Part shown: in pieces, positions 8,915 to 60,363 of the stretch
How positions within the stretch are numbered: position 1 is the first letter of the stretch
Layout: each line of letters starts with the position of its first letter
Assembly (NCBI RefSeq): GCF_000325705.1
Contig: NC_019904.1
Span: 1,930,001-1,994,000 of the forward strand
From: Echinicola vietnamensis DSM 17526
Lineage (GTDB): Bacteria > Bacteroidota > Bacteroidia > Cytophagales > Cyclobacteriaceae
DNA length: 64,000 bases
Direction: 5' to 3'
Position numbers and translations under genes: made by a program
Notes under the pieces: generated by a model
What the model saw: the letters and a program-made list of their open reading frames with translations, nothing else
The model's database searches: none
Told to the model about the DNA's origin: nothing

Positions 8915-11662
8915 ATGAAATTACTAGCTCCTGTTTTCCTATTGCTTTCCCTATTGGCATGCCAACAGCCGGAAAAAATCACGATCCTCACTTCCGAAAA
9001 TGCTTCCAAAAGGGTCGTCTTTGGCGCAGAGAAACTCGCCGAAGCGCTGAAGACCTCGGATGTTTACGACTTGCAGCAGAGCAAGCTTGGGGCAACAACT
9101 CCCGAGGGCAAGATCATTGTCATCGGGGAACAGCATGACCCGGCTGTGCGCCAGTGGAAGGAGGGACATGCTTGGGATGCGTCCGAATTGGAAGTGGCGG
9201 GGAAAGAAGCTTTTCAGATCAGGAGTGCTGATGAAAACACGCTGTTGGTAGAAGGGGCGGACCCGTCCGGTGCACTTTATGGTGCCCTAGCGCTGGTGGA
9301 TCAGTTGAACGAAAGAGGAGCGATTGATTTTCACCAGCAACTGAGCGATGGGCCAGAAATGGTGCTTCGTGGGGCGTGCATTGGTCTTCAGAAGACCTCC
9401 TATTTGCCTGGCCGTGGGGTCTATGAGTATCCCTATACGCCCGAGAATTTCCCTTGGTTTTATGACAAGGACCTCTGGATAGATTATCTGGACATGCTGG
9501 TGGAAAACCGGATGAATTCCTTGTACCTGTGGAATGGCCATCCTTTTGCTTCCTTGGTGAAGCTGGAGGATTACCCTTTTGCTGTGGAAGTGGACGAAGA
9601 GACCTTCCAGAAGAACGAAGAAATGTTTCGGTTTATCACCGAGGAAGCCGATAAACGGGGTATTTGGGTGATCCAAATGTTTTATAACATCATCGTATCC
9701 AAACCTTTTGCGGAGCACTATGACATCAAAACCCAAGACCGCAACCGTCCAATCATCCCTTACATAGCCGATTATACCCAAAAGTCCATTGCGGCTTTTA
9801 TAGAAAAGTATCCGAATGTGGGCCTGTTGGTAGCACTGGGAGAGGCCATGTCTGGGGAGGAAAATGACGTGCAATGGTTTACCGAAACGATCATTCCCGG
9901 TGTAAAAGACGGGCTGAAGGCATTGGGCAGGACCGATGAGCCGCCGATTATTTTAAGGGCGCACGATACCAATGCTCCACTGGTCATGGAGAAAGCATTG
10001 CCGCACTATAAAAACCTTTACACTACCCATAAGTACAATGGTGAATCCCTCACCACCTATCAGCCAAGGGGGCCATGGACCGACATCCACAAAAGCTTGA
10101 GCTCCAAAGGCAACATCCATATTTCCAATGTACACATCCTGGCCAATTTGGAGCCTTTCCGCTATGGCTCACCGGATTTTATCCAGAAGAGCGTGCAGGC
10201 CATGCACGACGTCCACGGTGCCAATGCCCTTCATCTTTATCCGCAAGCCTCCTATTGGGACTGGCCTTATACGGCGGATAAAACTGTAAGTGGCGAGCGA
10301 CTGCTACAGATCGACCGGGATTGGATGTGGTACAAGGCTTGGGGACGCTATGCCTGGAATTGCCGGCGAGACCGAGCCGATGAAGTGGCTTATTGGAGTG
10401 AAGTGCTGGGAAAGGAATATGGTACCCATGAGGAGGCAGGCAGGCAAATCCTGACAGCTTATGAGGAAACCGGGGAAATAGCGCCAAAGCTTTTGCGGAA
10501 ATTTGGGATCACGGAAGGAAACCGTCAAACCCTCCTTTTGGGAATGTTTGGGAGCCAATTGGTCAATCCTTACAAATGGCGGGTATATCCGGGCTTTCAT
10601 TCTTCCTGTGGGCCACTGGGAGAAATCCTGATCGAATATGCTGAAAAAGAGCACAAGGGCATTCCACATGAAGGGGAGATTCCGCCGCAACTCATTGCGG
10701 AGGTGGTGGAGCACGGAAGAAAGGCTGTGGAAGCCATAGAGGCGGCGGCTCCAGCAGTGAAAGCGAATAAGGATGAGTTTCTCCGGCTGCAGAATGATGT
10801 GTACAGTTACCATTCCTTTGCCGAGTTTTTTTCGGAAAAGGTAAAAGCGGCCATGAAGGTGTTGGAGTTTAAGTATTCGGGTGATGTGGCAGACTTGGAA
10901 GCGGCCCTTCCACACTTGGAAAAAAGTGTCGTTCATTACCGCGAGTTGGTGGCATTGACCGAGGATGCCTACCACTATGCCAATAGCATGCAAACCTCCA
11001 TGCGTCGGATCCCGATTGGAGGAGATGAAGGCCAAAACAAACATTGGAAAGAATTACTTCCCCATTATGAAAAGGAGTTGGCCAGCTTCAAAAGGAATAT
11101 CGCACTGTTACAGGACACCAAAGATGGCCAGCGCCCAAAGGTTGAGGTGACGCCTTGGGAAGCCGTATCGGTGGACTTGGGACTGGAAGCAGCTCCCTTC
11201 ACGGTCAAAGAAGGCCAAAAGGTATTTACCGATGATCCGGGTAGGATCGCACAATTTGCTCCCGAGCTCCAGCAGCTGAAAGGCTGGATGCTCTCATCAG
11301 AAAAGCTGGATGACGAGGGGATCACCCTCACCTTTAGCAACGACCAGCCGATCAAACTGGTGTTGGGGTATTTTAACACCGGGGACAAGCACTTTCTGAC
11401 ACCGCCCACCTTGGAGACCAATGCCATGGGCAATATGCGTGGCGAAGCGGAAGTCCAGCTGGCCAATGCCCTTCAGATTGAAGGCTTGCCGCCGGTAAAC
11501 ATTCACACGTATGATTTTGAAGCCGGCGAAAATGAACTCACCCTACAGGACGGAAAAGTACTGTTTCTGGGGGCGGTAAAAGGTGATCAAGAAATCGTTT
11601 CCCGTGATGTAGGACTGATCGGGGATGCACAGAAAGTGGCGGTGGATTGGGTGTTTTATTAA
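8915..11662 (+). CDS. Large alpha-uronidase-like lipoprotein (GH67/GH115-type architecture)
   Basis: A lipoprotein signal (Cys16 in LLACQQ) is followed by an N-terminal alpha/beta domain like the alpha-glucuronidase N-domain (about 25-130), recognisable by SGALYGALALVDQL. A TIM barrel follows (about 145-480) with RGACIGLQK, NRMNSLYLWNGHPF, GIWVIQMFYN and ALHLYPQASYWDWPY, then a helical region and a C-terminal sandwich. This architecture is that of GH67/GH115-related proteins annotated in Bacteroidota as alpha-glucuronidase or alpha-galacturonidase. In this setting release of terminal uronic acid from pectin is the natural guess. Catalytic residues could not be assigned with confidence. The long AG-rich repeat after it suggests the transcript may end here. 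Confidence 0.55.
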   Translation: MKLLAPVFLLLSLLACQQPEKITILTSENASKRVVFGAEKLAEALKTSDVYDLQQSKLGATTPEGKIIVIGEQHDPAVRQWKEGHAWDASELEVAGKEAFQIRSADENTLLVEGADPSGALYGALALVDQLNERGAIDFHQQLSDGPEMVLRGACIGLQKTSYLPGRGVYEYPYTPENFPWFYDKDLWIDYLDMLVENRMNSLYLWNGHPFASLVKLEDYPFAVEVDEETFQKNEEMFRFITEEADKRGIWVIQMFYNIIVSKPFAEHYDIKTQDRNRPIIPYIADYTQKSIAAFIEKYPNVGLLVALGEAMSGEENDVQWFTETIIPGVKDGLKALGRTDEPPIILRAHDTNAPLVMEKALPHYKNLYTTHKYNGESLTTYQPRGPWTDIHKSLSSKGNIHISNVHILANLEPFRYGSPDFIQKSVQAMHDVHGANALHLYPQASYWDWPYTADKTVSGERLLQIDRDWMWYKAWGRYAWNCRRDRADEVAYWSEVLGKEYGTHEEAGRQILTAYEETGEIAPKLLRKFGITEGNRQTLLLGMFGSQLVNPYKWRVYPGFHSSCGPLGEILIEYAEKEHKGIPHEGEIPPQLIAEVVEHGRKAVEAIEAAAPAVKANKDEFLRLQNDVYSYHSFAEFFSEKVKAAMKVLEFKYSGDVADLEAALPHLEKSVVHYRELVALTEDAYHYANSMQTSMRRIPIGGDEGQNKHWKELLPHYEKELASFKRNIALLQDTKDGQRPKVEVTPWEAVSVDLGLEAAPFTVKEGQKVFTDDPGRIAQFAPELQQLKGWMLSSEKLDDEGITLTFSNDQPIKLVLGYFNTGDKHFLTPPTLETNAMGNMRGEAEVQLANALQIEGLPPVNIHTYDFEAGENELTLQDGKVLFLGAVKGDQEIVSRDVGLIGDAQKVAVDWVFY

Positions 11663-11729: not shown

Positions 11730-11762
11730 CAGTTCTCTGGTTCTTCAAGAATCTGGCTGTTA

Positions 11763-11806: not shown

Positions 11807-11823
11807 CAAAAAACAATCACAAG

Positions 11824-14800
11824 ATGAACACGATTAGCACATATATTTCCTTCTTTTTGCTCCTTTTTTGGAGTGCTATTGCTATAGGGAATGCCCAGGA
11901 AGTACGAAAGGAGCTTTCCTTGAACCACGGCTGGAAAACCATTGCCTCTGGTGCATTGCCTTTGGAAGAGAAGGGTTTCGAGAAACCAGCTTTTGACGAC
12001 TCCCAATGGCTACAAGTGGATGTGCCGCATAATTGGGACCAATACGAAGGCTTCCGAAGAATGAAGCACGGCAACCGCCACGGAGCGGCCTGGTACCGCA
12101 AGACCTTCAAGCCTGCGTCCACGGATGAAGGCAAGCGGCATTTCTTGTTTTTTGAAGGAGTGGGATCTTACGCTACGGTGTGGGTAAACGGCCAGCTGGT
12201 GGGCAAGCATGCAGGTGGCAGGACCACTTTCACCTTGGATATTACCGATGCCTTGGCTTTTGGAGCCGAAAACACCATTGCGGTGAAGGCTGACCATCCT
12301 GCATGGATAGCAGATTTGCCTTGGGTGTGTGGGGGATGTTCCGGTGAGTGGGGTTTTTCTGAAGGCTCCCAGCCCATGGGGATCTTTAGGCCGGTGACCT
12401 TGGTTGTGACTGATCCTGTTCGCATAGCACCTTTTGGGGTGCATATCTGGAATGATGAAGCCATATCCGAGAAATCTGCCAAACTGCATTTGACCACAGA
12501 ACTAAAGAATTACGGTAAAGCCCCAAAGGACATCACACTGGTCAACCGACTACTGGATGCAGATGGAAAGGAAATAGATCGGCAAGAGCGTCGACTTTCA
12601 TTGGCAGCAGGCCAATTGGACACCATTCCTCAGACCACTGCTACCATCGAACAGCCCAACCTTTGGTCTCCCGCAAACCCTTACCTCTACAGCATGGTCA
12701 CGGAAGTGTATGAAGGGGACCGTTTAATGGATAAAATAAGCACGCCCTATGGTATTCGTTGGATCAGTTGGCCAGCGGGGCGAAAGGATGGTGACCACCG
12801 GTTTTTTATCAATGGCAAGCCCTTGTTTGTCAATGGGATTTGCGAGTACGAGCACCTGATGGGCCAAAGCCACGCCTTCACCGATCAGCAGGTCATGTCC
12901 CGGGTGGAGCAGATGTTGGCAGCTGGTTTTAATGCGTTTAGAGATGCTCATCAGCCCCATAATTTTACCTACCATGAAGCCTGGGATCGCCATGGAATCC
13001 TTTTCTGGACCCAATTTTCGGCCCATATCTGGTACGATACCCCCGAGTTTAAGGCAAACTTCAAGAAATTGCTGCGCGACTGGGTGAAAGAGCGGCGCAA
13101 CAGCCCTTCAGTGGTTTTATGGGGATTGCAAAATGAAAGCACCATCCCGAAGGCCTTTGCGGAAGAATGCACTGCAATCATCCGGGAAATGGATCCCACC
13201 ACTTCTTCCCAACGGCTGGTGACCACCTGCAATGGCGGCGAAGGGACAGATTGGAATGTAATCCAAAACTGGTCCGGTACTTATGGCGGTGAACCAGAGC
13301 AGTACGGCGAAGAGCTAAGTGAGCAAATTCTGAATGGAGAATATGGGGCTTGGCGTACGTTGGATTTGCATACAACCGGGCCATTTGACCAGAAAGGAGC
13401 CTATAGTGAGGATCGTTTTTACCAACTTATGCAAATCAAAGTCCGAGAGGCGGAACAACATAAAGACAGTTTGGCCGGACAATTCCATTGGCTATTCAAT
13501 TCCCATGAGAACCCCGGGAGAATCCAGAATGGAGAAGCCTTCCGTGACATCGACCGTGTGGGACCGGTAAACTATAAAGGGCTGGTAACGCCTTGGGAAG
13601 AACCCACAGATGCGTATTACATGTATCGGTCGGAATATGCCCCTGAAACCAGCGAGCCCATGGTGTACCTTGTGAGCCATACTTGGCCAGACCGCTGGAT
13701 CGAGCCGGGAATCAAGGACAGCGTAGTGGTATTTTCCAATTGCGAAGAAGTAGAATTGTTCAATAGCGTTAATGGCCATTCCCTTGGCAAAAAAGTAAAT
13801 CCAGGCTTGGGGAGCAATTTCCAATGGGATGATGTGGATATCCGCTATAACGTCCTGAAAGCAGTGGGCTATCGCGATGGAGAAGTTGTGGCAGAGGATA
13901 TGATCTTGCTGCACCATTTGCCGGAAGCGCCTGACTTTGACCAATTGGTAGACCAGACCGATATGCTGAAGTCAGCCCCCGGGTACCATTACCTGTATCG
14001 TGTAAATGCAGGAGGACCGGCCTATACGGACCAGCATGGACAATTCTGGCATGCTGATGTACAGCGCAAAGATAAAAATAGCTGGGGGTCGTTATCATGG
14101 ACGGATGATTTTGAGGATTTGCCGGCTTATTATGCCAGTCAGCGAAGGACCTTTGATCCTATCGGAGGTGTGGCAGACTGGGGACTGCTCCAGACATTCC
14201 GATATGGCAAACACAAGTTGCGGTATGCATTTCCATTACCAGATGGCGAGTATTTGGTCGAGCTCTATTTTGTCGAGCCTTGGTACGGTACCGGAGGGAG
14301 CTTGGAAGCAGCAGGTTGGCGTGATTTTGATGTAGCCATCAGTGGCGATACGGTGTTGCGGAATGTGGATATTTGGCAGTTGGAGGGGCATGATCAAGCC
14401 ATGAAGAAGGTGGTGAAGGGAAGTGCAAAGGATGGTTTATTGACCGTTAGCTTTCCCAAAATCACGGCCGGCCAAGCGGTGATTTCCGCCATTGCCATTG
14501 CCACTAAGGAAGGCGGCATCCACCCGGCACCTCCATCCCCGAAGACCATCACCAACTTCCAATCAAGCCAAAAAGGGGCGAGTGTACAGTCGTGGCTGGA
14601 TACCGGCCAGCCTCAATATGCCGACAAGGAGATTGCTTTTAGCCAATTGCCTTACAATTTGTATGGTGCTGATTGGGTGAGGTTTCCCACGGATGCCCAA
14701 AGCGTTTCAGGTACCTTCCAAGCGTTGGAAAGTGCTACGTTATACGTGCTCATGGACAGTGCCGTGACAGTGCTGCCTGATTGGATGGCGGGATTTGAAC

Positions 14801-15357
14801 GGACAGATCAGCTAGCTGCTAATGGCCAAGGAACGCACTTCCACGTGTACGAAAAAGCATTGAAAAGCGGAGAGGAGGTTGATTTTGGAGAAAATGGAGC
14901 GGTATCGGAAGGCGAAGCATCCATGTACACCTTGGTGCTGGTGCCAGCATATGAGATGGGAGATGGAGAGGAGCAGCGTCCGGTGGAGGCACTGGAAGCA
15001 GAATCGGCCCAAGTCGACGGAAGTTTTACCACTGGAAACTTTAAGAAAAGTGACTATATCGCCTTTGAAAAAGACAATAGCTTCTCCTGGGAGGTTAATC
15101 CAGGGTTGGCAGGGACTTTTTTGATTCGATTTAGGTACATGAACAATGGCGATGATCCGAAAAAGGTGCGACTGCGCATTACGGCGGCCAATGGGGTGGT
15201 CATGCGGGATGATGTGATCGCATTTCCTGTGGCAGATGTCAAATGGAAAATCCTGAACACCACTTCCGGCGGGCAGCTGAATGCCGGCAAATATACCATT
15301 ACCCTTTCTGGAGAAGGACTTGACGGCTTATGGTTGGACCGGGTGGAATTTCAATAA
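11824..15357 (+). CDS. GH2 enzyme with malectin-like and C-terminal binding domains
   Basis: Retaining exo-glycosidase of the beta-galactosidase/beta-glucuronidase family, exported by a signal peptide ending near NAQE (residue 25). The GH2 sugar-binding, Ig-like and TIM-barrel domains span about 27-650. The acid/base is Glu438 in LQNEST and the nucleophile Glu506 in NGEYGAW. A DUF4982-like sandwich follows, then a malectin-type domain that starts at RVNAGGPAYTD (about 728), and a C-terminal domain (about 1060-1177, beginning EALEAESAQ) that looks like a CBM6/35-type sandwich. At 1177 residues it is far longer than a minimal GH2. Natural substrate is probably a beta-galactoside or beta-glucuronide in rhamnogalacturonan side chains. 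The gap to the next GH2 is only 99 bp, so they may be co-transcribed. Confidence 0.85.
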   Translation: MNTISTYISFFLLLFWSAIAIGNAQEVRKELSLNHGWKTIASGALPLEEKGFEKPAFDDSQWLQVDVPHNWDQYEGFRRMKHGNRHGAAWYRKTFKPASTDEGKRHFLFFEGVGSYATVWVNGQLVGKHAGGRTTFTLDITDALAFGAENTIAVKADHPAWIADLPWVCGGCSGEWGFSEGSQPMGIFRPVTLVVTDPVRIAPFGVHIWNDEAISEKSAKLHLTTELKNYGKAPKDITLVNRLLDADGKEIDRQERRLSLAAGQLDTIPQTTATIEQPNLWSPANPYLYSMVTEVYEGDRLMDKISTPYGIRWISWPAGRKDGDHRFFINGKPLFVNGICEYEHLMGQSHAFTDQQVMSRVEQMLAAGFNAFRDAHQPHNFTYHEAWDRHGILFWTQFSAHIWYDTPEFKANFKKLLRDWVKERRNSPSVVLWGLQNESTIPKAFAEECTAIIREMDPTTSSQRLVTTCNGGEGTDWNVIQNWSGTYGGEPEQYGEELSEQILNGEYGAWRTLDLHTTGPFDQKGAYSEDRFYQLMQIKVREAEQHKDSLAGQFHWLFNSHENPGRIQNGEAFRDIDRVGPVNYKGLVTPWEEPTDAYYMYRSEYAPETSEPMVYLVSHTWPDRWIEPGIKDSVVVFSNCEEVELFNSVNGHSLGKKVNPGLGSNFQWDDVDIRYNVLKAVGYRDGEVVAEDMILLHHLPEAPDFDQLVDQTDMLKSAPGYHYLYRVNAGGPAYTDQHGQFWHADVQRKDKNSWGSLSWTDDFEDLPAYYASQRRTFDPIGGVADWGLLQTFRYGKHKLRYAFPLPDGEYLVELYFVEPWYGTGGSLEAAGWRDFDVAISGDTVLRNVDIWQLEGHDQAMKKVVKGSAKDGLLTVSFPKITAGQAVISAIAIATKEGGIHPAPPSPKTITNFQSSQKGASVQSWLDTGQPQYADKEIAFSQLPYNLYGADWVRFPTDAQSVSGTFQALESATLYVLMDSAVTVLPDWMAGFERTDQLAANGQGTHFHVYEKALKSGEEVDFGENGAVSEGEASMYTLVLVPAYEMGDGEEQRPVEALEAESAQVDGSFTTGNFKKSDYIAFEKDNSFSWEVNPGLAGTFLIRFRYMNNGDDPKKVRLRITAANGVVMRDDVIAFPVADVKWKILNTTSGGQLNAGKYTITLSGEGLDGLWLDRVEFQ

Positions 15358-30241: not shown

Positions 30242-32122
30242 ATGCATAAACCAATTATAACCTTATTGATCCTTGGGGTCTTTTTGACCAGTTTGATGTC
30301 CGATGTGATGGCCCTCGATATCTGGGTGGCCAAGAGTGGCGATGATGCCAATGAGGGTTCGAAATCAAGCCCTCTGGCCACAGTTCACATGGCCTTGCGG
30401 AAAGCCCGGGAGTTACGCCGGATACAGGACCCTTCCATTGCAGAGGGGATTAATATTATGGTGGGAGATGGCGTGTATCGCTTCTTTGAGCCCCTTCGTA
30501 TCCGCCCAGAAGATGCCGGGACGGCAGAGAGTCCTACGACCATCATGGCAGCACCCAGTGCCAGCCCTGTTTTTTCGGGGGGCGTTCCAGTGCTCGGTTG
30601 GCAGCGAGCCGAGGCGCTTCCTGATGGTCTCCCTGAGGCGGGAAAGGAGCACCTTTGGGTGGCCGATGTGCCGGTGGTAGGAGGCCAGGAGGTCGGCTTT
30701 CGCCAGCTTTGGATTGATGGTGAAAAAGCCAAAAGGGCTACCAACCTCTATGAGGGAGCATTGGATCGGATCCTTTCGGTAGACAGTGCTCGACAGGAGA
30801 TGTGGGTTCCTACGCCGGAATGGGATTTCAAGAACCTCGATCAGCTGGAGTTTGTCATTCACCAATGGTGGGCGATTGCGAATTTGCGGGTAAAGTCAGT
30901 GGATGTCCAAGGGGACAAAACCAAGCTGACCTTTCACCAACCAGAAAGCCAAATAGAGTTTCAACACCCTTGGCCGGCACCGTTTATCGATGCCAAAAAA
31001 GAATATAATGGCAATTCAGCTTTTTACTGGCAGGGAGCTGCGGAACTGCTGAACCAGCCAGGGGAGTGGTACCATGATAAGCGAGACGGAAAAGTTTACT
31101 ATTGGCCAAAAGCCGGCGAAAATATGGAGACAGCAACGGCCATTGTGCCTTTTTTGGAGACCATCGTTCTGGTGGATGGCACGGCAGACCTTCCAGTCAA
31201 GCATGTACGTTTTGAGGGGATAGGCTTTGAGCATGCGACGTGGATGAGGCCTTCACATCGTGGGCATGTGCCCTTGCAGGCGGGTTGGTATATTTTGGAG
31301 GCTTATAAGTTAAAGCAACCGGGAACTCCAGATAAGGCCAGCTTGGAAAATCAAGCATGGACAGGCCGCCAGCCTGCGGGAGTGGCCGTAAATTATGCAC
31401 AGCATATCCGTTTTGAGCGTTGCCGATTCGAGCACATGGCAGCCACAGGACTGGATTTGGTAGAAGGCGTCAGTGACAGTGAAGTGATTGGCAATGTGTT
31501 TCGCGATATCGGCGGGACCGGCATTCAGGGGGGCTTCTTCGGAGGGCCTGATTTTGAGTCCCATCTGCCATACCATCCGCAGGACCAGCGGGAACTGGTG
31601 CATCACCTTACCATTGCCAACAATTACATTACCAATGTGACCAATGAAGACTGGGGATGTGTCGGCATCAGTATTGGGGCAGCACATGATGTCAACATCG
31701 CGCACAATGAGGTCAGCGATGTCAATTATTCGGGAATCTGTGTCGGCTGGTTCTGGACCAAGACCATCACGGTGACCAAAAACAATCGTATCCATGCCAA
31801 TCGCATCCACAACTTTGCGAAGCAAATGTATGACGTGGGCGGCGTCTATACCCTTTCTGCCCAGCCCAATACAGAGATCAGTGAAAATGCCATTTATGAT
31901 CTTCAGGATGCTCCCTATGCCCATATGCCGCATCATCACCAGTACATTTATTTTGATGAAGGCTCTTCTTATATCCGGGCGATAAACAACTGGACAGAGC
32001 GGGATAAGTTCTTCTCCAACAGCCCCGGTCCTGGCAACAAATGGGAAAATAATGGCCCGGATGTGGATCCAGCGATAAAAGAGAAGGCTGGATTGGAAGA
32101 GGCCTATAGGGATATTAAGTAG
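30242..32122 (+). CDS. Secreted right-handed parallel beta-helix enzyme (GH141-like)
   Basis: Signal peptide about 1-24 (ending VMA). The N-terminus (IWVAKSGDDANEGSKSSPLATV) and the following repeats are typical of parallel beta-helix polysaccharide-active proteins. Helix-coil repeats such as NNYITNVTNEDWGCVGISIG, HNEVSDVNYSGICVG and ENAIYDLQ are spread over about 390-600. The overall form resembles GH141, a family with alpha-L-fucosidase and xylanase members that includes an enzyme acting on rhamnogalacturonan II. Other beta-helix lyases or hydrolases are possible. No catalytic residues can be assigned by eye. The preceding 272-bp gap contains an 81-codon frame (29969-30214) that is not supported. 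Confidence 0.6.
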   Translation: MHKPIITLLILGVFLTSLMSDVMALDIWVAKSGDDANEGSKSSPLATVHMALRKARELRRIQDPSIAEGINIMVGDGVYRFFEPLRIRPEDAGTAESPTTIMAAPSASPVFSGGVPVLGWQRAEALPDGLPEAGKEHLWVADVPVVGGQEVGFRQLWIDGEKAKRATNLYEGALDRILSVDSARQEMWVPTPEWDFKNLDQLEFVIHQWWAIANLRVKSVDVQGDKTKLTFHQPESQIEFQHPWPAPFIDAKKEYNGNSAFYWQGAAELLNQPGEWYHDKRDGKVYYWPKAGENMETATAIVPFLETIVLVDGTADLPVKHVRFEGIGFEHATWMRPSHRGHVPLQAGWYILEAYKLKQPGTPDKASLENQAWTGRQPAGVAVNYAQHIRFERCRFEHMAATGLDLVEGVSDSEVIGNVFRDIGGTGIQGGFFGGPDFESHLPYHPQDQRELVHHLTIANNYITNVTNEDWGCVGISIGAAHDVNIAHNEVSDVNYSGICVGWFWTKTITVTKNNRIHANRIHNFAKQMYDVGGVYTLSAQPNTEISENAIYDLQDAPYAHMPHHHQYIYFDEGSSYIRAINNWTERDKFFSNSPGPGNKWENNGPDVDPAIKEKAGLEEAYRDIK

Positions 32123-44972: not shown

Positions 44973-45003
44973 AAACCATAGCGTACTTTCCGCAAGTATT
45001 CAG

Positions 45004-45467: not shown

Positions 45468-45908
45468 ATGTTTATAAAGAAGTATTACGAAGAATTCGAG
45501 CTGGAAGAGACGAGGGAAACGCTAGGGCGTACCATTACAGAAACGGATATAGTGATGCATGCGGGGCAAACGGGAGACTTTTTTCCGCATCATATGGACG
45601 CAGAATGGTGCAAGACCCAGCCTTTCAAAGAGCGGATTGCCCACGGAACTTTGATCTTTTCCGTGGCGGTAGGGATGACTGCTCAGGTGATCAATGAGGT
45701 GGCCATGACCTATGGCTATGAACGACTCCGCTTTACCAAACCCGTATTTATTGGGGATACCATAAGGGTAAAAGTATCCATAAAGGATAAAAAAGACCAT
45801 AAAAGGCCCGCGTATGGCTTAGTGACGGAGTTGGTAGAGGTGTTTAACCAGAAAGATGAGTTGGTGATGCTTTGCGAGCATATTTTATTGACCGAAAAGA
45901 AACAATAA
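45468..45908 (+). CDS. MaoC-family hydratase/dehydratase
   Basis: A single hot-dog fold of 146 residues. The hydratase motif is present: Asp37 and His42 in [11 protein letters not shown], followed by [15 protein letters not shown], and a C-terminal [18 protein letters not shown]. Such enzymes add water to, or remove it from, 2-enoyl-CoA thioesters, and related members act on mesaconyl- or methylmalyl-type CoA substrates. It begins a close-packed set: 9 bp to the next gene, then two class III CoA-transferases, so it probably acts on a CoA thioester that they make. Confidence 0.88.
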
Positions 45909-45917
45909 ACCTACATC

Positions 45918-48234: not shown

Positions 48235-48273
48235 TCATTTGCTATTAATCTATCATTCACTCACTAAGTACCC

Positions 48274-49416: not shown

Positions 49417-49464
49417 GGCAAATGACCAAGCATTTCAGTAGGAAAAAATAACGAATAGCAAGTA

Positions 49465-50319: not shown

Positions 50320-50363
50320 AAAAACAAGGAGAGAGAAAAGAAGATAGAGTGCTGAAACTGTTC

Positions 50364-50378
50364 GGGATTTGTAATCCC
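50364..50378. repeat. Single 3-nt-loop hairpin
   Basis: GGGATT TGT AATCCC, identical to the one at 11792, in the 95-bp gap before the RhaT-like permease gene. Confidence 0.6.
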
Positions 50379-50414
50379 AGCATCATGCTAACCTTAAAAC
50401 TAAAATAACCTAAC

Positions 50415-51449
50415 ATGAGTGTCATCGGTGGAGTAATGTTTCATGCTGTCGGGGCTTCCTTTGCAGCACTTTGTTATACCCCGCAGAAAAAAGTGGTCAG
50501 TTGGTCTTGGCAAACTTATTGGCTGGCACAAGCCTTTTTCTGTTGGTTTTTATTGCCCATTATCGGGGCTTGGTTGACGATTCCGGAACTGATGAAAGTA
50601 TTGGATGAGGCCCCCAAGGATGCGATGTGGAAGGCTTTTGGATTGGGCATGGCCTATGGAGTAGGCGGGACTGCTTTTGGAATAGCCATCCGTTATATCG
50701 GATTTTCGCTGACCTATGCCATATCGATCGGTATTTCCTGTGTGGTAGGGACGCTGTTGCCTCCTTTGGTAAAAGGAGAATTGGCGGCTGTTTTACAGCA
50801 AGAAGGATCCGGCTGGATTGTGACCGGCATGGTGTTGGGAGTGTTGGGCATCGCTTTGTGTGGCTTGGCAGGAAGGTACAAGGAACTGGATTTGGCAAAG
50901 CTTGAAATTGGTGCCCAGTCCAGCTTTTCCGTATCCAAAGGCCTTCCGTTATGCATTTTGGCGGGCGTGCTTTCGGCATTGTATGGCTTTTCGATTGATC
51001 AGGGGCAGCCCATTGCGGATGTGGCCGTGAAATACGGTGCTGGCGATTTCCAAAGCAACGTGGTCTATATTTTTTCCAATACCGGAGCATTTTTGGTGAC
51101 CCTTTTTTATTGCCTTTACCTGCACCGGAAGCAAAGGACATTCAGGGAATTTACCCGCAAGGCAAAGGCTCCCCTGACCAAAAATTACTTGCTGGCCATC
51201 ATGACAGGAATGATGTGGTACTCACAGTTTTTCTTTTATGGGCTAGGACACGTTCGCATGGGGGATTATAAATTTACCAGTTGGGCCGTACACATGATCA
51301 TGTTGGTGATGTTCAGCACGGTGGCCGGGTTGGCCATGAAGGAATGGACGCACGCAAAGGGGAAAACGGTTTATGCGCTAGTACTGGCCTTGGCCGTTTT
51401 ACTGGCGGCAGTTTTGGCCTTGACAGTAGGGAATGCTATCGGGGCCTAA
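50415..51449 (+). CDS. RhaT-like sugar permease
   Basis: 344 residues with about ten transmembrane helices. It resembles the L-rhamnose-proton symporter RhaT: an opening HAVGASFAALCYTPQKKV followed by SWSWQTYW, and GMAYGVGGTAFGIAIRYIGFSLTYAISIGIS in the second and third helices, with GALAGRYKE-type loop (here GLAGRYKELDL). It should import L-rhamnose or a similar deoxy or branched sugar across the inner membrane. Placed between a lactonase and a dehydrogenase, it is the likely entry point for the pathway substrate of this cluster. Specificity for L-rhamnose itself is not certain, since no rhamnose isomerase, kinase or aldolase genes are nearby. Confidence 0.85.
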   Translation: MSVIGGVMFHAVGASFAALCYTPQKKVVSWSWQTYWLAQAFFCWFLLPIIGAWLTIPELMKVLDEAPKDAMWKAFGLGMAYGVGGTAFGIAIRYIGFSLTYAISIGISCVVGTLLPPLVKGELAAVLQQEGSGWIVTGMVLGVLGIALCGLAGRYKELDLAKLEIGAQSSFSVSKGLPLCILAGVLSALYGFSIDQGQPIADVAVKYGAGDFQSNVVYIFSNTGAFLVTLFYCLYLHRKQRTFREFTRKAKAPLTKNYLLAIMTGMMWYSQFFFYGLGHVRMGDYKFTSWAVHMIMLVMFSTVAGLAMKEWTHAKGKTVYALVLALAVLLAAVLALTVGNAIGA

Positions 51450-51686
51450 GAAGTTACGCGATGGCGTGCAGGTCACGATAGAATTAAGGTGTTTAGCTGA
51501 AAATGCGGTTATGTTAGCAGCATTTCGGGTTAAAAATATGGAATATCAAAAATTGTTGATAACCTTAAGAAATGAATGTGAATTCGTAAAGCCTTTATAC
51601 CGGAAGGGGTAGGTCTGGAGGGAATGTGAAGTTTGGCCGATACTTTCGCCGTTTTTTGGAGGCGCAGCAAGCGATAAATCAATGAT

Positions 51687-52724
51687 ATGAAAATACTACA
51701 AATCGGAGCGGGCGGAATCGTGAAGGACGCCCATTTGCCGGCCTACAAAATAGCCGGTTTTGAGGTGGAAGGTGTCTATGACCTTGACGAAGAAAATGCT
51801 ATTAGCCTTGCTACTGCGTTTGGGATTCCGCGTGTTTTTGGCTCTCTGGATGAGTTGACAGCCCATGCCACAGAGGATACGGTTTTTGATGTGGCAGTGC
51901 CCGGGAGTGCCGTGTTAGAGGTGTTGGAGAAGCTACCTGATGGAGCCGTGGTCCTGATCCAGAAGCCGATGGGGGAAGATTTGGAGGCTGCCAAAGCCAT
52001 TTTGGCCCTGTGCAGAAAGAAAAAGCTGAAGGCAGGGGTCAATTTTCAGATGCGCTATGCGCCTTACATCCAAAAGGCCCGCGAAATCATCCAAGCGGGC
52101 CACATTGGCGAGGTATGTGATATAGAGGTCAAAATCAACGTTTATACCCCTTGGCACCTGTGGGATTTTCTTTTTACGGCTTCACGAGTGGAGATTTTGT
52201 ACCACAGCATTCATTATGTGGACCTTGTTCGCTCCTTTTTCGGCAATCCTGAAAAAGTATATGCCAAGACCATCAAGCACCCCAAAATGACACAACTGGC
52301 CTCGGTGAAGACCAATATCATCATGGACTATGGAGCACTGAAAGGAGCCAATATTCTCACCAATCATGCGCATGCATTTGGGCTAAAACACCAACAGTCT
52401 TACGTGAAGATTGAAGGCACCAAAGGGGCGATCATGATTGAAATGGGGCTGTTAAAAAATTATCCCCAAGGAACTGCTGACAAATTTGAATATATCATTG
52501 CAGCGGAAGGGAAGGAGGCCGAATGGAAGGAAGTAGAAATAGCGGGAACGTGGTTTCCTCATGCTTTTATAGGCTCCATGACCGAGATGAAAAAAGCACT
52601 GGAAAACCCGGCATATCTTCCCGACAACAGTGTGGAAGACTGCATTTACACCATGGCTTGTGTGGAGGCCGCCCATCAGTCCAGTGAGCAGGGCGGGGTG
52701 GTGTTGCCTACTATCGACCAGTGA
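51687..52724 (+). CDS. Gfo/Idh/MocA-family dehydrogenase
   Basis: Rossmann fold with ILQIGAGGIVKDAHLPAYK, then FDVAVPGSAVLEVLEKLPDGAVVLIQKPMGEDLEAA, where QKP takes the place of EKP. The C-terminal domain has the catalytic-type histidine in ILYHSIHYVDLVRSFFG. 345 residues, cytoplasmic. In published D-apiose pathways the first step is a Gfo/Idh/MocA-type D-apiose dehydrogenase, and this protein is the candidate for an equivalent step here, with the amidohydrolase opening the lactone. That assignment is an inference from context. It is separated from the RuBisCO-like gene by 211 bp that contain a terminator. Confidence 0.87.
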   Translation: MKILQIGAGGIVKDAHLPAYKIAGFEVEGVYDLDEENAISLATAFGIPRVFGSLDELTAHATEDTVFDVAVPGSAVLEVLEKLPDGAVVLIQKPMGEDLEAAKAILALCRKKKLKAGVNFQMRYAPYIQKAREIIQAGHIGEVCDIEVKINVYTPWHLWDFLFTASRVEILYHSIHYVDLVRSFFGNPEKVYAKTIKHPKMTQLASVKTNIIMDYGALKGANILTNHAHAFGLKHQQSYVKIEGTKGAIMIEMGLLKNYPQGTADKFEYIIAAEGKEAEWKEVEIAGTWFPHAFIGSMTEMKKALENPAYLPDNSVEDCIYTMACVEAAHQSSEQGGVVLPTIDQ

Positions 52725-52935: not shown

Positions 52936-54180
52936 ATGGAAAGAATTTCAGCAACATATTACATCGAAACACCTTTTGAGGTGGAATCAGCAGCAGCGGT
53001 ATTGGCAGGGGAGCAATCCTCAGGAACGTTTGTGGCGGTACCTGGCGAGACGGCCGAGCTGAAGCAGCGTTTTGCTGCCCGGGTAGAATCCATCGAAAAA
53101 CTGGAAACCGTCAGTCAGCCGGCTATCCCCGGGGCAGTGTCTTCTCATGGAAAGTACCATCGGGCGATGATTTCCGTTTCTTGGTCCATCGAAAACTTTG
53201 GCTATAACTTGCCCACCATGATATCAACCCTACAGGGCAACTTATACGAAATTACCCAGTTTACAGGGCTGAAGCTGATGGACTTGGAGGTGCCGGCCTC
53301 TTTTGCACAGCACTTTGCTGGCCCTGCTTTTGGGATCAAGGGTTGTCGGGAGTTGACCGGAGTGGAAGCGGGGAGACCATTGATCGGGACGATCATTAAG
53401 CCAAGCATCGGCATGCGTCCCGAAGAGACCGCGGCCTTGGTGAAGACTTTGGTGGAGGCTGGAATTGATTTTATCAAAGACGATGAATTGATGGGGTCGG
53501 CGGCCAATTCACCCTTTGACAAACGGGTAGAGGCCATCATGAGGGTGATCAATGCCCATGCTGATAAATCAGGCAAAAAAGTGATGTATGCTTTTAACAT
53601 CTCCGATGAAATGGACCGCATGCACGAACATTACGACACGGTGGTGAAGCATGGCGGTACCTGTGCGATGATGAGCATCAACAGCGTCGGGATGGCAGGC
53701 GTAAAGCGCATTTGTGACCGAAGGGAGCTGGCCATTCATGCCCATAGAAATGGCTGGGGAATGCTCAACCGGCATCCACTGCTGGGCATCGATTTTAGGG
53801 CATATCAGAAGCTTTGGCGTTTGGCCGGTGTGGATCAGCTCCATGTAAACGGCATTCAAAATAAATTTTGGGAATCGGATGATTCCGTAGTACGGTCAAT
53901 AGCGGGATGTTTGACCCCTATGCTGGGAGGCTATCAGGTGCTGCCGGTCGTTTCTTCAGGACAATGGGGAGGCCAAGCACCAGAAACCTACCGTCGTACG
54001 GAGACGACCGATTTATTGTACATGGCTGGTGGAGGCATCATGGCGCATCCAGCGGGTCCCGCTGGGGGTGTTAAAGCACTTCAACAAGCTTGGAGGGCTG
54101 CGGTGGACGGGCTTTCTGTCGAAGAAGCAGCCAAGAAGTATGAGGAATTTGGGTTATCTGTACAGAAATTTGGCAAGTAA
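52936..54180 (+). CDS. RuBisCO-like protein (form IV), probable 3-oxo-isoapionate-4-phosphate-type enzyme
   Basis: Aligned by eye with spinach RuBisCO large subunit, 414 residues keep most active-site positions: Glu27 and Thr32 (E60, T65), Asn in FGYNLPT (N123), Lys155 in TIIKPSIG (K175), the metal site Lys181/Asp183/Glu184 in FIKDDE (K201, D203, E204), His268/His270/Arg271 in AIHAHRNG (H292, H294, R295) and Lys310 in QNKFWE (K334). K177 is Ser157 and W66 is Phe33. The phosphate loop GGGIMAHPAGPAGG is intact. Known form IV members include enolases of methionine salvage and 3-oxo-isoapionate-4-phosphate decarboxylase or transcarboxylase/hydrolase of D-apiose catabolism. The DUF1537 kinase 2 bp downstream argues for the apiose-type role. 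CO2 fixation is not expected. Confidence 0.9.
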   Translation: MERISATYYIETPFEVESAAAVLAGEQSSGTFVAVPGETAELKQRFAARVESIEKLETVSQPAIPGAVSSHGKYHRAMISVSWSIENFGYNLPTMISTLQGNLYEITQFTGLKLMDLEVPASFAQHFAGPAFGIKGCRELTGVEAGRPLIGTIIKPSIGMRPEETAALVKTLVEAGIDFIKDDELMGSAANSPFDKRVEAIMRVINAHADKSGKKVMYAFNISDEMDRMHEHYDTVVKHGGTCAMMSINSVGMAGVKRICDRRELAIHAHRNGWGMLNRHPLLGIDFRAYQKLWRLAGVDQLHVNGIQNKFWESDDSVVRSIAGCLTPMLGGYQVLPVVSSGQWGGQAPETYRRTETTDLLYMAGGGIMAHPAGPAGGVKALQQAWRAAVDGLSVEEAAKKYEEFGLSVQKFGK

Positions 54181-54182
54181 AA

Positions 54183-55574
54183 ATGCGTGAGAAAGTATCC
54201 CCGTTATTGTTGGCTTTTTATGGCGATGATTTTACAGGCTCATCCGATGCGCTTGATTTTTTGAGTAAGGCAGGAGTGAAAACCGTCCTGTTTATCGCTC
54301 CCCCCACTTCAGCACAGTTGGCCAAGTACGAAGGCGTACAGGCCATTGGGGTGGCAGGGATGACGCGGTCGATGGTTCCGGAAGCCATGGAACATGAATT
54401 GAGAAACGCTTTTGGGGCCTTGAAGCAGTCGGGAGCCCGCCAAGTACATTATAAGGTTTGTTCCACATTTGATTCTTCTCCAAAAATCGGCAATATCGGC
54501 AAGGCATTGGAGGTGGGGCTGGAGGCATTTCAGGTACCTTATGCCTCGCTGTTGGTGGCAGCGCCTGAACTTGGGCGCTATTGCGCGTTTGGGAATTTGT
54601 TTGCCCGCATGGGCATTGGCAGCCAAGGAAAAATCTATCGTCTCGACAGGCATCCTTCCATGAGCAAGCATCCGACCACCCCCGCCGATGAAAGTGATCT
54701 TCGACTGCATTTGGCCAAACAGACAGATCTAAAAGTAGGGTTAGTGGATGTGTTAGCGGTGGAGACCGGCGGTGAAGTGTTGGCAGAGGCGTTGCAGCAT
54801 GAACTGGAGGCAGGAGCCAAGGCGGTGCTTTTTGATGCCATGTATTCTAGGCAATTGTCCGCAATTGGCGGTTTGATGGACCGAGCAGCAAACGAACGTC
54901 CCCACTTTTCCGTGGGATCCTCGGGGATAGAAATGGCCTTAGGGGCCTATTGGAAGGCCGAGGGACTCCTTCCGAAGGAAATAACTTGGGATAAGCCGGG
55001 CAAGGCAGGGCCCATGTTGGTGCTGTCCGGAAGTTGCTCCCCCATCACAGAAGGGCAGATTACCCATGCTCGCGTCCATGGATTTGGGGAAGTTGCGATA
55101 GATCCTGAGCAACTGGTGTCAGGTCCAAAAGCCGTCCAACAGTATGTTCAGGAAGTGCTGGAAATAATGGAGAAGGGAAAACCGGTAATCGTCCATACCG
55201 CTTGTGGTGCGGAAGATTCGAGGAGGGCCGTTACCCGTAAAATACTGATCAACCAAGGTGTTCCTCCCGAAGATGTCAGTGCCAAAACGGCCGACTTCTT
55301 TGGGCAAGCTTTAGGAGAGATTGCCCGCAAGGTAGCTGAAAAATATCCCTATAAAAGACTTCTGATCGCTGGGGGAGATACTTCCAGCAAAGTGGCGAGA
55401 GTCCTCGGAATAGAAGCCGTGGAGATGATTGCTCCTTTAGTGCCGGGGGCACCATTGTGCGTGGCCCATGCCCCAGCATCACCGATCGATGGTATGGAAG
55501 TAAACTTCAAAGGCGGCCAGGTGGGAGCTGAAGACTATTTCGTAAAAGTGATGGAGGGGAATGTCGGCGGATGA
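54183..55574 (+). CDS. DUF1537/four-carbon-acid-sugar-kinase family, probable 3-oxo-isoapionate-type kinase
   Basis: 463 residues with the two-domain architecture of the family. The N-terminal sugar-acid domain starts LLAFYGDDFTGSSDALDFLSKAG and has HYKVCSTFDSSPKIGNIGKA. The C-terminal nucleotide-binding domain has GSCSPITEGQI and LLIAGGDTSSKVARVLG. Characterised relatives phosphorylate threonate, erythronate, 2-oxotetronate and 3-oxo-isoapionate with ATP. The start codon lies 2 bp after the RuBisCO-like stop, so the two are certainly co-transcribed and probably act in series, the kinase making the phosphorylated substrate of the RuBisCO-like protein. The 3-oxo-isoapionate assignment is by context and recognised motifs, not by experiment. 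Confidence 0.85.
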   Translation: MREKVSPLLLAFYGDDFTGSSDALDFLSKAGVKTVLFIAPPTSAQLAKYEGVQAIGVAGMTRSMVPEAMEHELRNAFGALKQSGARQVHYKVCSTFDSSPKIGNIGKALEVGLEAFQVPYASLLVAAPELGRYCAFGNLFARMGIGSQGKIYRLDRHPSMSKHPTTPADESDLRLHLAKQTDLKVGLVDVLAVETGGEVLAEALQHELEAGAKAVLFDAMYSRQLSAIGGLMDRAANERPHFSVGSSGIEMALGAYWKAEGLLPKEITWDKPGKAGPMLVLSGSCSPITEGQITHARVHGFGEVAIDPEQLVSGPKAVQQYVQEVLEIMEKGKPVIVHTACGAEDSRRAVTRKILINQGVPPEDVSAKTADFFGQALGEIARKVAEKYPYKRLLIAGGDTSSKVARVLGIEAVEMIAPLVPGAPLCVAHAPASPIDGMEVNFKGGQVGAEDYFVKVMEGNVGG

Positions 55575-55683: not shown

Positions 55684-56340
55684 ATGAAAACATTAGGACT
55701 CATACACACATCTGCCACATTGGTGCCGATTTTCCAGGCCCTTTGCGAGGAACATTTGCCAGATGTAAAGGTATTTAATATTGTCGATGACAGCTTGATC
55801 AAAGACGTGATCAGCAAAGGAAAGTTAACGCCCCATACGGCCAGGAGAGTGGTGGATTATGTGGGGTCTGCCGAGGCGGCAGGTGCCGATCAGATCATGG
55901 TGACCTGCTCCTCGATAGGGGCAGCGGTAGAGGCCGCGGCCGACTTGACCCAAGTTCCGGTGTTGCGGGTAGATCAGCCCATGGCAGATTTGGCTGTTCA
56001 GACTGGGGTGAGAATTGGAGTGGTAGCCACTTTGCCGACGACCTTGGAACCTACTTCTGACTTGGTGAGAAGAAGGGCAGACGTGATGGGAAAAGATATT
56101 AAATTGACCTCCAAGCTTTGCGAAGGTGCTTTTGAGGCCTTGATGGGAGGAGCTCCTGACCAGCACGATGAAATGGTTGCCGAAGCACTGAAAGCGCTGG
56201 CCAAAGAAGTAGATGTCATCCTTTTGGCGCAAGCCTCTATGGCCAGGGTAGTGGACAAGCTGGATGAAGCAGATAAAAAAGTGCCCATCGTGGCCAGTCC
56301 GCCTGAATCGGTGAAATACTTGGCGCGGAGCATGAAGTAG
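55684..56340 (+). CDS. Asp/Glu-racemase-superfamily protein with one of two catalytic cysteines
   Basis: 218 residues with the two-domain racemase fold: LGLIHTSATLVPIF at the N-terminus, Cys75 in MVTCSSIG at the first catalytic position, and VRIGVVATLPTTL opening the second domain. At the second catalytic position, about residue 185, the sequence reads ILLAQASMARV, with no cysteine. Amino-acid racemases need both cysteines, so a two-base racemase is unlikely. The same superfamily contains maleate isomerase and arylmalonate decarboxylase. In this operon it may act on an acid intermediate or product. It follows the kinase by 109 bp. Confidence 0.8.
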   Translation: MKTLGLIHTSATLVPIFQALCEEHLPDVKVFNIVDDSLIKDVISKGKLTPHTARRVVDYVGSAEAAGADQIMVTCSSIGAAVEAAADLTQVPVLRVDQPMADLAVQTGVRIGVVATLPTTLEPTSDLVRRRADVMGKDIKLTSKLCEGAFEALMGGAPDQHDEMVAEALKALAKEVDVILLAQASMARVVDKLDEADKKVPIVASPPESVKYLARSMK

Positions 56341-56418: not shown

Positions 56419-57699
56419 ATGCAGCGGACTCGGAAGTTTCTTTTATTCAGTTCACCTGTCATCTTCATCGTTTTTGGTATTGCCTTGGCGATGGGATTTA
56501 CCGATGTCTGGAAAATCAGTGCCGTAGCATGCAGTGTGGTGTTTTCGTTGGGGCTTGGCGCTTCCAAGCGGTTTGGTGGGTATCAGTATACGGCGTGGAT
56601 CATGACCGCCGTGGTAGCCGGGATGATTTACCCAACCGCCTTTTTGCAGTGGGGAGATGTGGATTTGCGAAACAAATGGCTGATATTATTTGTCGTACAG
56701 GCGGTGATGTTTGGCATGGGCATCCAGATGAGTTTACAGGATTTTTCCAATTTGGCCAGCACCGGAAAGGGTGTTGTTGTAGGCTTATTGAGCCAGTTCA
56801 GCATCATGCCGTTAGTAGGTTTTATGCTGACCAATCTGTTTGATTTTGACCCTGAAATAGCCGCGGGGATCATCTTGATGGGGGCGTGCAGCAGCGGTTT
56901 GGCGTCAAACGTGATGGTGTATTTGGCCAGGGCCAATTTGGTTCTTTCAGTGACCGTGACGGCCATGGCGACCATGCTGGCGCCACTGATGACGCCTTTT
57001 TGGATGAAGACATTGGCGGGAACCTTGATCGATATCAAGTTTTTGGACATGATGTTCAATATTATCAAGATTGTACTCGTTCCCATTGGCGCAGCCTTGC
57101 TCCATGACTACCTGAAGAAGGCAGACAAGAACACGAAAAACCGAATTTATGGGGTGGCAGTGAGCTGCGCGGGGTACTTGATGCTTTTGCCATTTGGGCT
57201 TTGGCAGTTTTATGCAAGTCGTCTTTCTCCCGCTGCACTGCAATCCTTGGAATTGATGAATTTTTTTATGGGCGCAGTGGTATTTGGAGTGGCTTATCAC
57301 TTGTGCACCCGCCAATTCAAAAAGTTGGACAAGTTAATGCCGTATATTTCCATGTTTGGCATTGTGTATTTTACTACCGTGACTACGGCGGCAGGTCGGG
57401 ACAATCTCCTCCAGGTAGGCATGCTTTTGTTTTTGGTTGCGGTCATCCATAACGGGTTGGGGTACTTCTTCGGTTATTGGCTCAGCAGGTTGTTGGGTTT
57501 GGACATTCCTTCTGCAAGAGCAATGGCCTTGGAAGTAGGACTTCAAAATGGCGGCATGGCTTCTGGCCTGGCGGGCTCGATGGGCAAGCTGGGGACAGTG
57601 GGCTTGGCACCGGCGGTGTTCAGTCCATGGATGAATATCACCGGCTCCATATTGGCCAATTATTGGCGAAAAAGACCCGCCAATGAAAGGGATAACTGA
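56419..57699 (+). CDS. Bile acid:Na+ symporter-family (SBF) permease
   Basis: 426 residues with about ten transmembrane helices. SBF-family signatures: AVMFGMGIQMSLQDFSNL, GFMLTNLF, GIILMGACSSGLASNVMVYLARAN and a C-terminal ARAMALEVGLQNGGMASGLA. The ILMGACSSGLASN segment is the sodium/substrate crossover region of the family. Members carry organic anions such as bile acids, pantoate or sulfonates. Next to a sugar-acid kinase and RuBisCO-like protein it may import the acid substrate or export a product such as glycolate. It is the last gene of the cluster and is followed by a possible terminator. Confidence 0.88.
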   Translation: MQRTRKFLLFSSPVIFIVFGIALAMGFTDVWKISAVACSVVFSLGLGASKRFGGYQYTAWIMTAVVAGMIYPTAFLQWGDVDLRNKWLILFVVQAVMFGMGIQMSLQDFSNLASTGKGVVVGLLSQFSIMPLVGFMLTNLFDFDPEIAAGIILMGACSSGLASNVMVYLARANLVLSVTVTAMATMLAPLMTPFWMKTLAGTLIDIKFLDMMFNIIKIVLVPIGAALLHDYLKKADKNTKNRIYGVAVSCAGYLMLLPFGLWQFYASRLSPAALQSLELMNFFMGAVVFGVAYHLCTRQFKKLDKLMPYISMFGIVYFTTVTTAAGRDNLLQVGMLLFLVAVIHNGLGYFFGYWLSRLLGLDIPSARAMALEVGLQNGGMASGLAGSMGKLGTVGLAPAVFSPWMNITGSILANYWRKRPANERDN

Positions 57700-59141: not shown

Positions 59142-59214
59142 AAAAACAGGGTGTTTTGTAATTTTATTGGACAAAATGAGAAATCTGCTTTGGGCAATTT
59201 CAATAAACGCCAAT

Positions 59215-60363
59215 ATGAAACAACCGATAACCTACCTATGTGCCTGGTCCTTATTGATAGGACTAGGTCTTAGCTGCTCTTCTAAAAATGAAAAAATCGC
59301 CGAAGAAGCTACGGCATCCAAGCCGGTGATAACCGAATCGGTGATGCAGCAGGTCTATGAGGAAATCAAAACGCCCCATAAATATGGTTTGGTAAAAATC
59401 CCGCCAAGCAACGATCTGAAAATGGACTGTCCCAGTATTTTCCGAGAAGGAGACAAGTGGTACATGACGTACCTGATTTATGGGGGGCGCGGTTACGAGA
59501 CATGGCTGGCAGAAAGTGACGATCTTTTGCATTGGGAAGACAAAGGAAAGATCATGTCTTTTTCGGATACCACGGACTGGGACATGAACCAAAAAGCAGG
59601 TTATATTGCCCTTCAGGATATGGAATGGGGCGGAAGTTACCACTGGGGCACGTATGAAGACAAGCATTGGATGAGCTATTTTGGCGGCAATACCCGTGGC
59701 TATGAAGCCGGTGTGTTGTCCATCGGTATGGCCTATACAGACCAAGCCCCCACCACCGCCCATGAATGGCAACGGCTAAAAGAGCCGGTGTTGACACCGC
59801 ATGATGAGGACGCGAGATGGTGGGACAACAGCACCATGTACAAAAACTCCATTATTAGGGACGAGGAAGAATATACCGGACACCCATTTGTCATGTACTA
59901 TAATGCCCGCGGCGACAGCATTAATCCTGGTCGGGGTGCCGAAAGGATAGCCATGGCAGTATCAGATGATATGGTGAATTGGAAGCGATATGGAGAGGCT
60001 CCACTGATCAATCACCATAAGGGGATCTCTGGGGATGCCTATATCCAGCAGATGGGGGAATTGTACGTGATGTTTTACTTTGGGGCTTTTTGGCCTGACA
60101 GGGAAAATACCACAGCTTTTAACCGATTTGCCGTTTCCAACAATTTAGTGGACTGGGTGGATTGGGAAGGAGCCGATTTGATCAGCCCTTCAGAGCCCTA
60201 TGATAATCTTTTTGCCCACAAATCCTTTGTGGTTAAGCACGATGGAGTAGTTTACCATTTCTATTGTGCGGTCAACAAAGATGAACAGCGAGGCATTGCG
60301 GTGGCTACCTCAAAAGACCTTGGCACAAGTGACTTGGATTTTCTTCCTTTGGAAAGGGAATAG
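59215..60363 (+). CDS. GH43-superfamily five-bladed beta-propeller lipoprotein
   Basis: The ATG at 59215 is chosen because it starts a lipoprotein signal (Cys21 in GLGLSCSS); in-frame starts at 59167 and 59176 would precede it. The propeller has acidic residues placed as in GH43/GH117/GH130-type enzymes: MDCPSIFREGDKWYMTYLIYG, WLAESDDLLHWEDKG, WWDNSTMYKNS, MAVSDDMVNWKRYG and GISGDAYIQQMGELYVMFYFG. The repeated S-D-D/N-x-x-x-W blade motif supports the fold. Substrate unknown; arabinose or galactose side chains would fit the surroundings. 382 residues. Confidence 0.7.
   Translation: MKQPITYLCAWSLLIGLGLSCSSKNEKIAEEATASKPVITESVMQQVYEEIKTPHKYGLVKIPPSNDLKMDCPSIFREGDKWYMTYLIYGGRGYETWLAESDDLLHWEDKGKIMSFSDTTDWDMNQKAGYIALQDMEWGGSYHWGTYEDKHWMSYFGGNTRGYEAGVLSIGMAYTDQAPTTAHEWQRLKEPVLTPHDEDARWWDNSTMYKNSIIRDEEEYTGHPFVMYYNARGDSINPGRGAERIAMAVSDDMVNWKRYGEAPLINHHKGISGDAYIQQMGELYVMFYFGAFWPDRENTTAFNRFAVSNNLVDWVDWEGADLISPSEPYDNLFAHKSFVVKHDGVVYHFYCAVNKDEQRGIAVATSKDLGTSDLDFLPLERE

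Follow-up and report, generated by a model that had tools for sequence, protein, structure and literature searches.

The 64,000-nucleotide stretch of Echinicola vietnamensis DSM 17526 analysed here (contig NC_019904.1, positions 1,930,001 to 1,994,000; hereafter the window) encodes a RuBisCO-like protein (RLP) followed immediately by a DUF1537 kinase, which raises the question of what substrate such an enzyme pair would act on within a pectin-degradation region. The answer favoured here, with a probability that we put at about 70%, is that both enzymes are part of a four-gene module, completed by an Asp/Glu-racemase-fold protein and a BASS (sodium/bile-acid type) transporter, for the catabolism of aceric acid from side chain B of rhamnogalacturonan-II (RG-II). 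Few plant polysaccharides match RG-II in complexity; aceric acid is 3-C-carboxy-5-deoxy-L-xylose, and its 2-ketose is the methyl homologue of 3-oxo-isoapionate. Published work describes the structure of aceric acid (PMC8218411), its presence in RG-II side chain B, where it may be acetylated (PMC11360243), and the aceric acid hydrolase BT1003, a member of glycoside hydrolase (GH) family 127 (PMC10850190). The idea of aceric acid was drawn from chemistry before the match to this hydrolase emerged. Protein families, gene order, co-occurrence and active-site residues were established from the sequence and are described first.

Families and phylogeny of the RLP and the kinase

Both open reading frames are intact and lie on the plus strand, 2 bp apart, as the initial annotation had reported: the RLP spans 52936..54180 (414 residues) and the kinase, of SBD_N/NBD_C architecture, 54183..55574 (463 residues). 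The RLP was assigned by Pfam (RuBisCO_large, 217.3 bits; RuBisCO_large_N, 36 bits), NCBIfam, residue-level alignment and phylogeny, and the kinase by Pfam (SBD_N, 200.5 bits; NBD_C, 125.5 bits), the NCBIfam OiaK model and identity to partner kinases. A protein search identified a single RLP in the genome. The nearest named families are OiaX (3-oxo-isoapionate-4-phosphate decarboxylase) and OiaK (3-oxo-isoapionate kinase), which likewise form an RLP-DUF1537 pair and for which the substrate type is that proposed here; the Rhizobium etli pair is 51% and 41% identical to the window RLP and kinase, respectively. Against the OiaX model (NF042437) the RLP reaches 522 bits, under the curated cut-off of 700, which none of 59 relatives passes and which R. 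etli OiaX exceeds with 785.5. The kinase reaches 404.9 bits against the OiaK model (NF042436), also under its cut-off of 700, although this threshold is strict, since the kinase adjoining R. etli OiaX itself attains just 475.7 bits.

Scores against other models are lower. The kinase gave 218.8 bits with the 3-oxo-tetronate kinase model and 101.3 with the D-threonate kinase model, and the methionine-salvage enolase MtnW was rejected for the RLP (NF007095, 171.4 bits, cut-off 409; TIGR03332, 131.7 bits, cut-off 513.6). A true, carboxylating RuBisCO was also discarded, the type III model giving 231 of 497 bits, with residues K177, W66 and G380 replaced. These comparisons support the initial annotation's suggestion of OiaX/OiaK-like chemistry instead of methionine salvage, the kinase being nearer to OiaK than to 3-oxo-tetronate or D-threonate kinase.

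In a tree of 42 rows, from which L116 and, for size, 62 of the 80 RLPs from related loci were omitted (compared loci and genomes carry L and G numbers), 24 rows, all of the window's kind, cluster together (support 99/95), and the two OiaX proteins stand next to them (96/97). The sister relation to OiaX is tentative, because OiaX and the RuBisCO outgroup sit on long branches. RLPs linked to ApnO (D-apionate oxidoisomerase) fall outside. The RLP of Echinicola arenosa (L009) is 87% identical to that of the window.

The RLP active site

Equivalent positions were taken from an alignment of the RLP with a form I RuBisCO (L105), and residue states were read in 82 clade members; residues are numbered as in RuBisCO, and this numbering, like the choice of catalytic residues, was anchored on motifs. 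In all 82 members E60, T65, N123, K175, K201, D203, E204, H294, R295, H327, K334, S379, G381, G403 and G404 are kept, while K177, W66 and G380 are replaced by Ser157, Phe32 and Ser341, respectively. Two further differences from form I, H298 to Trp274 and H325 to Gln301, are equally invariant. The initial annotation was thus right that nearly all catalytic residues are retained and that K177 and W66 are exceptions, the former as Ser157; its phenylalanine is residue 32 instead of 33, and its list lacked G380 as well as the changes at H298 and H325. The two annotated OiaX proteins examined carry D, G, Q and G where the clade has E60, N123, H327 and S379. Residues L23, Q100 and Y233, with Q100 placed two residues ahead of the N123 equivalent, are fixed in at least 97% of the clade and occur in none of 17 other RLPs compared. 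The retained residues together with these clade-specific ones would favour a fuller RuBisCO-like reaction on a distinct substrate.

A 3-oxo-isoapionate-4-phosphate transcarboxylase/hydrolase activity is described for Xanthobacter in PMC6302742. RLPs other than OiaX that neighbour ApnO-type genes (L092, L094, L095, L111 and L114), which we would guess to be transcarboxylases of this Xanthobacter type, have the window's state at all listed catalytic positions. They differ in carrying H325 where the window RLP has Q301, in gene neighbourhood and in lying outside the clade formed by OiaX and the window's group.

A conserved four-gene block

The racemase-fold gene (55684..56340, plus strand; PF01177) starts 109 bp after the kinase gene and is followed after 78 bp by the transporter gene (56419..57699, plus strand; Pfam SBF, 108.8 bits; 197.9 bits against the PanS model, below its cut-off of 400). 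Neighbourhoods were clustered for 89 loci: that of the window, eight plasmid loci and 80 related loci, the latter drawn from three phyla or more. The racemase-fold protein was found in 75 loci and the transporter in 74, in every case within the 82 window-type loci; neither occurs in the seven proteobacterial or archaeal plasmid loci (L090-L096). The order RLP, kinase, racemase-fold protein, transporter on one strand is preserved in 68 of the 82 loci and the last two genes are inverted in four, several of the remainder being short contigs. The racemase-fold protein tracks the RLP, being present in 3/3 RLP genomes, 0/8 genomes with the aceric acid hydrolase and no RLP, and 0/3 genomes with neither. 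The module occurs in Bacteroidota, Verrucomicrobiota and Balneolota (loci L061, L077, L078, L084 and L089 bear on this spread). Horizontal spread is likely, because the module is found in several phyla and, in L089, on a plasmid typed as mobilizable.

The initial annotation had proposed an apiose-type route, in which the RLP and the kinase would act on 3-oxo-isoapionate derived from RG-II apiose through enzymes not recognised here. OiaX and OiaK as nearest families, the position of the clade next to OiaX and the RG-II type of the locus agree with this proposal, since RG-II contains apiose. Nevertheless, both proteins stay under the OiaX and OiaK cut-offs, and the RLP has its clade-specific L23, Q100 and Y233. 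No ApnO was found in 20 genomes carrying the RLP, 19 of them distinct because G450 seems to duplicate G007, while positive controls were recovered in 4/4 cases with a query, the phosphogluconate-dehydrogenase-C protein of L096, which we presume to be ApnO. ApnL (D-apionate lactonase) was found in 0/15 genomes, 11 of them RLP-bearing, in a search whose controls also gave none, the model scoring 899 bits on L092. Candidate apiose dehydrogenases share just ~22% identity with the adjacent Gfo/Idh protein. In place of the missing enzymes stand the racemase-fold protein and the BASS transporter, absent from the seven clustered proteobacterial and archaeal loci. The apiose route, examined through ApnO and ApnL of the oxidative D-apiose pathway and through the Gfo/Idh comparison, was therefore not supported and is unlikely here. 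The fallback offered in the initial annotation does fit, namely that the genes serve a related pathway for some other branched sugar acid; from the hydrolase linkage and co-occurrence described below, on strong genomic support, apiose appears to yield to aceric acid.

Linkage to aceric acid hydrolase

Aceric acid hydrolases were detected with model NF049879, only matches over its cut-off of 950 bits being counted. The commonest other neighbour of the block, a protein of ~676 residues, is present at 35 of the 80 related loci (phmmer against the L020 protein, each scoring at least 713). At 25 of these 80 loci it immediately precedes the RLP gene in the same orientation, the gap being 0-148 bp. 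The L020 member gave 1160.3 bits with NF049879 and five further members 917-1102, the lowest (Pelagicoccus) falling below the cut-off; the remaining members were assigned by similarity to L020. Co-occurrence extends to whole genomes. In a named sample representing 50 of the 80 loci, some of whose genomes are shared with the class sample below, the hydrolase is over the cut-off in 49 genomes and reaches 916.9 bits in the fiftieth. The class sample comprises 395 genomes, including that of E. vietnamensis; five contain the clade RLP and 12 the hydrolase, among them all five. The hydrolase is thus found in 7/390 genomes without the RLP, a class in which three RuBisCO-family matches of 103-135 bits were placed (Fisher p = 1e-8, ignoring shared ancestry). 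Below the cut-off, the model hits many more genomes: 53/395 at an E-value of 0.001, of which four score 686-729 bits. In a genus sample, the hydrolase is over the cut-off in 7/7 genomes with the RLP and 1/4 without.

Two compact blocks, in Aurantibacter (L081) and Pseudozobellia (L082), contain SusC, SusD, hydrolase, RLP, kinase, racemase-fold protein and transporter, and from SusC to transporter the hydrolase is their sole glycoside hydrolase. Outside them lie a GH92 gene in the next SusC/SusD unit (L081) and regulators, an opposite-strand xylose-isomerase-like gene, a small kinase and a heparinase/alginate-lyase-type gene (L082). Taken together, these linkages make aceric acid a strongly suggested substrate. 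BT1003 is a known enzyme, and the hydrolase is here the partner glycosidase of the module and its link to the substrate, not its novelty.

Several observations weigh against this assignment, which itself depends on linkage to a hydrolase whose name comes from its homology to BT1003. The RG-II alpha-galacturonidase co-occurs as well, being over its cut-off in 42/50 named RLP genomes and in 11/395 genomes of the class sample, including all five with the RLP; the association is therefore with RG-II use first, and co-occurrence by itself is not enough to pick out aceric acid. RG-II also contains apiose. At 45 of the 80 loci fetched, no hydrolase lies within the stretch covered, and the one hydrolase of E. 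vietnamensis over the cut-off (1123.9 bits, and 1124.1 in a second scan; G000:C1:2003995-2005956) is ~20 kb downstream of the RLP instead of adjacent to it. Eight genomes (G004, G046, G130, G158, G226, G231, G244 and G414) have the hydrolase over the cut-off and neither the RLP nor the racemase-fold protein, which implies another fate of aceric acid there, or release without use.

The co-occurring alpha-galacturonidase (42/50) and the RG-II enzymes around the module would suit one that serves another RG-II acid, for example Dha or else Kdo, or that serves a methylated sugar, its link to the hydrolase arising only from shared RG-II loci. However, all eight named RLP genomes that lack the alpha-galacturonidase over its cut-off match the hydrolase, seven of them over the cut-off, and L081 and L082 are among them; the discordant pairs, 7 to 0, give p = 0.016, a generous value given that several genomes are close relatives. 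The hydrolase is also the only glycoside hydrolase within the compact blocks, the GH92 and heparinase/alginate-lyase-type genes lying further off, and Dha and Kdo lack the needed beta-keto skeleton. Another RG-II substrate thus seems improbable, the least probable of the explanations weighed here. A GH127-like gene on a Croceibacterium plasmid (L093) was tried as a second link to aceric acid and rejected at 87 of 950 bits. In this part of L093 (10175-14528) it overlaps the start of the RLP gene, and the region also encodes GH28, GH2 and fucosidase proteins.

Proposed route and reaction type

From the families and linkages above we infer the substrate, the order of steps and the type of reaction. 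Aceric acid would be released from RG-II by the hydrolase and is predicted to be imported by the BASS symporter. The racemase-fold protein, at a guess the aldose-ketose isomerase, would then convert the aldose to the 2-ketose, which is the least certain step. The kinase is predicted to phosphorylate C1 of this ketose, giving P-O-CH2-CO-C(OH)(COOH)-CHOH-CH3, that is, 3-oxo-isoapionate 4-phosphate with CHOH-CH3 in place of CH2OH. The RLP is accordingly annotated as a predicted 3-C-carboxy-5-deoxy-pentulose-1-phosphate transcarboxylase/hydrolase or decarboxylase. In the slightly preferred version, it would move the carboxylate and hydrolyse the product as RuBisCO does, yielding 3-phosphoglycerate and L-lactate.

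Alternatively, the RLP may only decarboxylate the beta-keto acid, as OiaX does, to 5-deoxy-pentulose 1-phosphate, which an aldolase encoded elsewhere would split into dihydroxyacetone phosphate and acetaldehyde. Such a reaction would be compatible with the aceric acid explanation, of which it forms a variant. The decarboxylase OiaX stands beside the clade in the tree, which weighs against hydrolysis, although the OiaX branch is long, and both Q301 (RuBisCO H325) and the SGQWGGQAPETY stretch are common to the RLP and the OiaX proteins examined. In contrast, the RLP retains E60, N123, H327 and S379, which are D, G, Q and G in the two OiaX proteins examined, and no aldolase was found among the annotated genes around the L081 and L082 blocks, of which part were scanned. 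Plain decarboxylation is a serious possibility, short of an even chance.

The isomerase is, like the reaction type, uncertain. The protein has the fold and family features of PF01177, and the pair of catalytic cysteines typical of Asp/Glu racemases was not found. C75 is present in 75/75 members, and the second catalytic position is Ala184, within an invariant AQASM motif, in a weak alignment to 1jfl (E 0.026); profile alignments end at profile position 183 or earlier. Past C146, no alignment column has cysteine in at least 5/75 members. C146 is itself conserved in 74/75, which weighs against a firm view of the mechanism. We know of no sugar isomerase with a racemase fold, and rival isomerases exist in xylose-isomerase-like proteins near the L082 block and at 7803-8723 of the window. 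The latter is a TIM barrel (PF01261, 76 bits) whose start resembles a secretion signal by eye. Because of the conserved C146 and these rivals, the complete scheme, in which a racemase-fold isomerase, a DUF1537 kinase, an RLP transcarboxylase/hydrolase forming 3-phosphoglycerate and L-lactate and a BASS importer make up a pathway of which we know no published account, is held only tentatively, below even odds.

The surrounding RG-II locus

The pectin setting recognised initially is sharpened by these matches to an RG-II locus. An alpha-D-galacturonidase is encoded at 8915..11662 (plus strand; NF049878, 1519.1 bits, cut-off 1300) and a GH141 protein at 30242..32122 (plus strand; PF21231 GH141_M, 213 bits). 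The RG-II glucuronidase/arabinofuranosidase family (NF049877, whole-model cut-off 1800) is represented by two separate plus-strand genes ~44 kb apart: the GH2-type C-terminal part at 11824..15357 (1560.3 bits, positions 363-1400) and the N-terminal part, presumably of GH137 type, at 59167..60363 (535.6 bits, model positions 11-358). The window and its downstream flank also encode GH106, a SASA esterase, a DUF5703 protein and the aceric acid hydrolase. Most of these families belong to the RG-II enzymes of Bacteroides thetaiotaomicron. L103 has a Fic-domain protein (5908-7065) in the RG-II locus, flanked by the genes for the SASA esterase and the DUF5703 protein, and a BT1003 homologue at 9932-11971.

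Upstream of the RLP, positions 44100-52724 hold a run of genes for a 290-residue protein matched by no Pfam or NCBIfam model, an SBP_bac_1 protein in which inspection by eye shows no signal peptide, two family III CoA-transferases, an amidohydrolase, a RhaT-like transporter and the Gfo/Idh protein. The CoA-transferase, amidohydrolase and RhaT genes were considered as core module and rejected, with CoA-transferases in just 5/89 clustered loci; this gene run perhaps serves another RG-II sugar. The CoA-transferase pair is also near the RLP in L010, L021, L045 and L076. Other RLP-DUF1537 pairs were seen in L090 (3949-11630), near otnK/otnC, enolase and phosphoenolpyruvate carboxylase or pyruvate kinase, and adjoining VOC proteins and TRAP transporters in L108 (6454-9503), L109 and L115; they probably represent further substrates of this enzyme pair.

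Implications

In the accessible text of the literature searched (PMC6302742, PMC12168206, PMC12282258, PMC7939467, PMC8218411, PMC10850190 and PMC11360243 among it), which covers few subscription papers, aceric acid catabolism by an RLP is not described, although it may be in print elsewhere; its release by BT1003 is known, and a route for the freed aceric acid is not given there. If the proposal is true, a small conserved group of genes would account for the fate of aceric acid, and the RuBisCO superfamily would gain a new substrate beyond CO2 fixation, methionine salvage and apiose use. The racemase-fold family and the BASS transporter would acquire testable roles, the former as what would be, as far as we are aware, the first sugar isomerase with a racemase fold.

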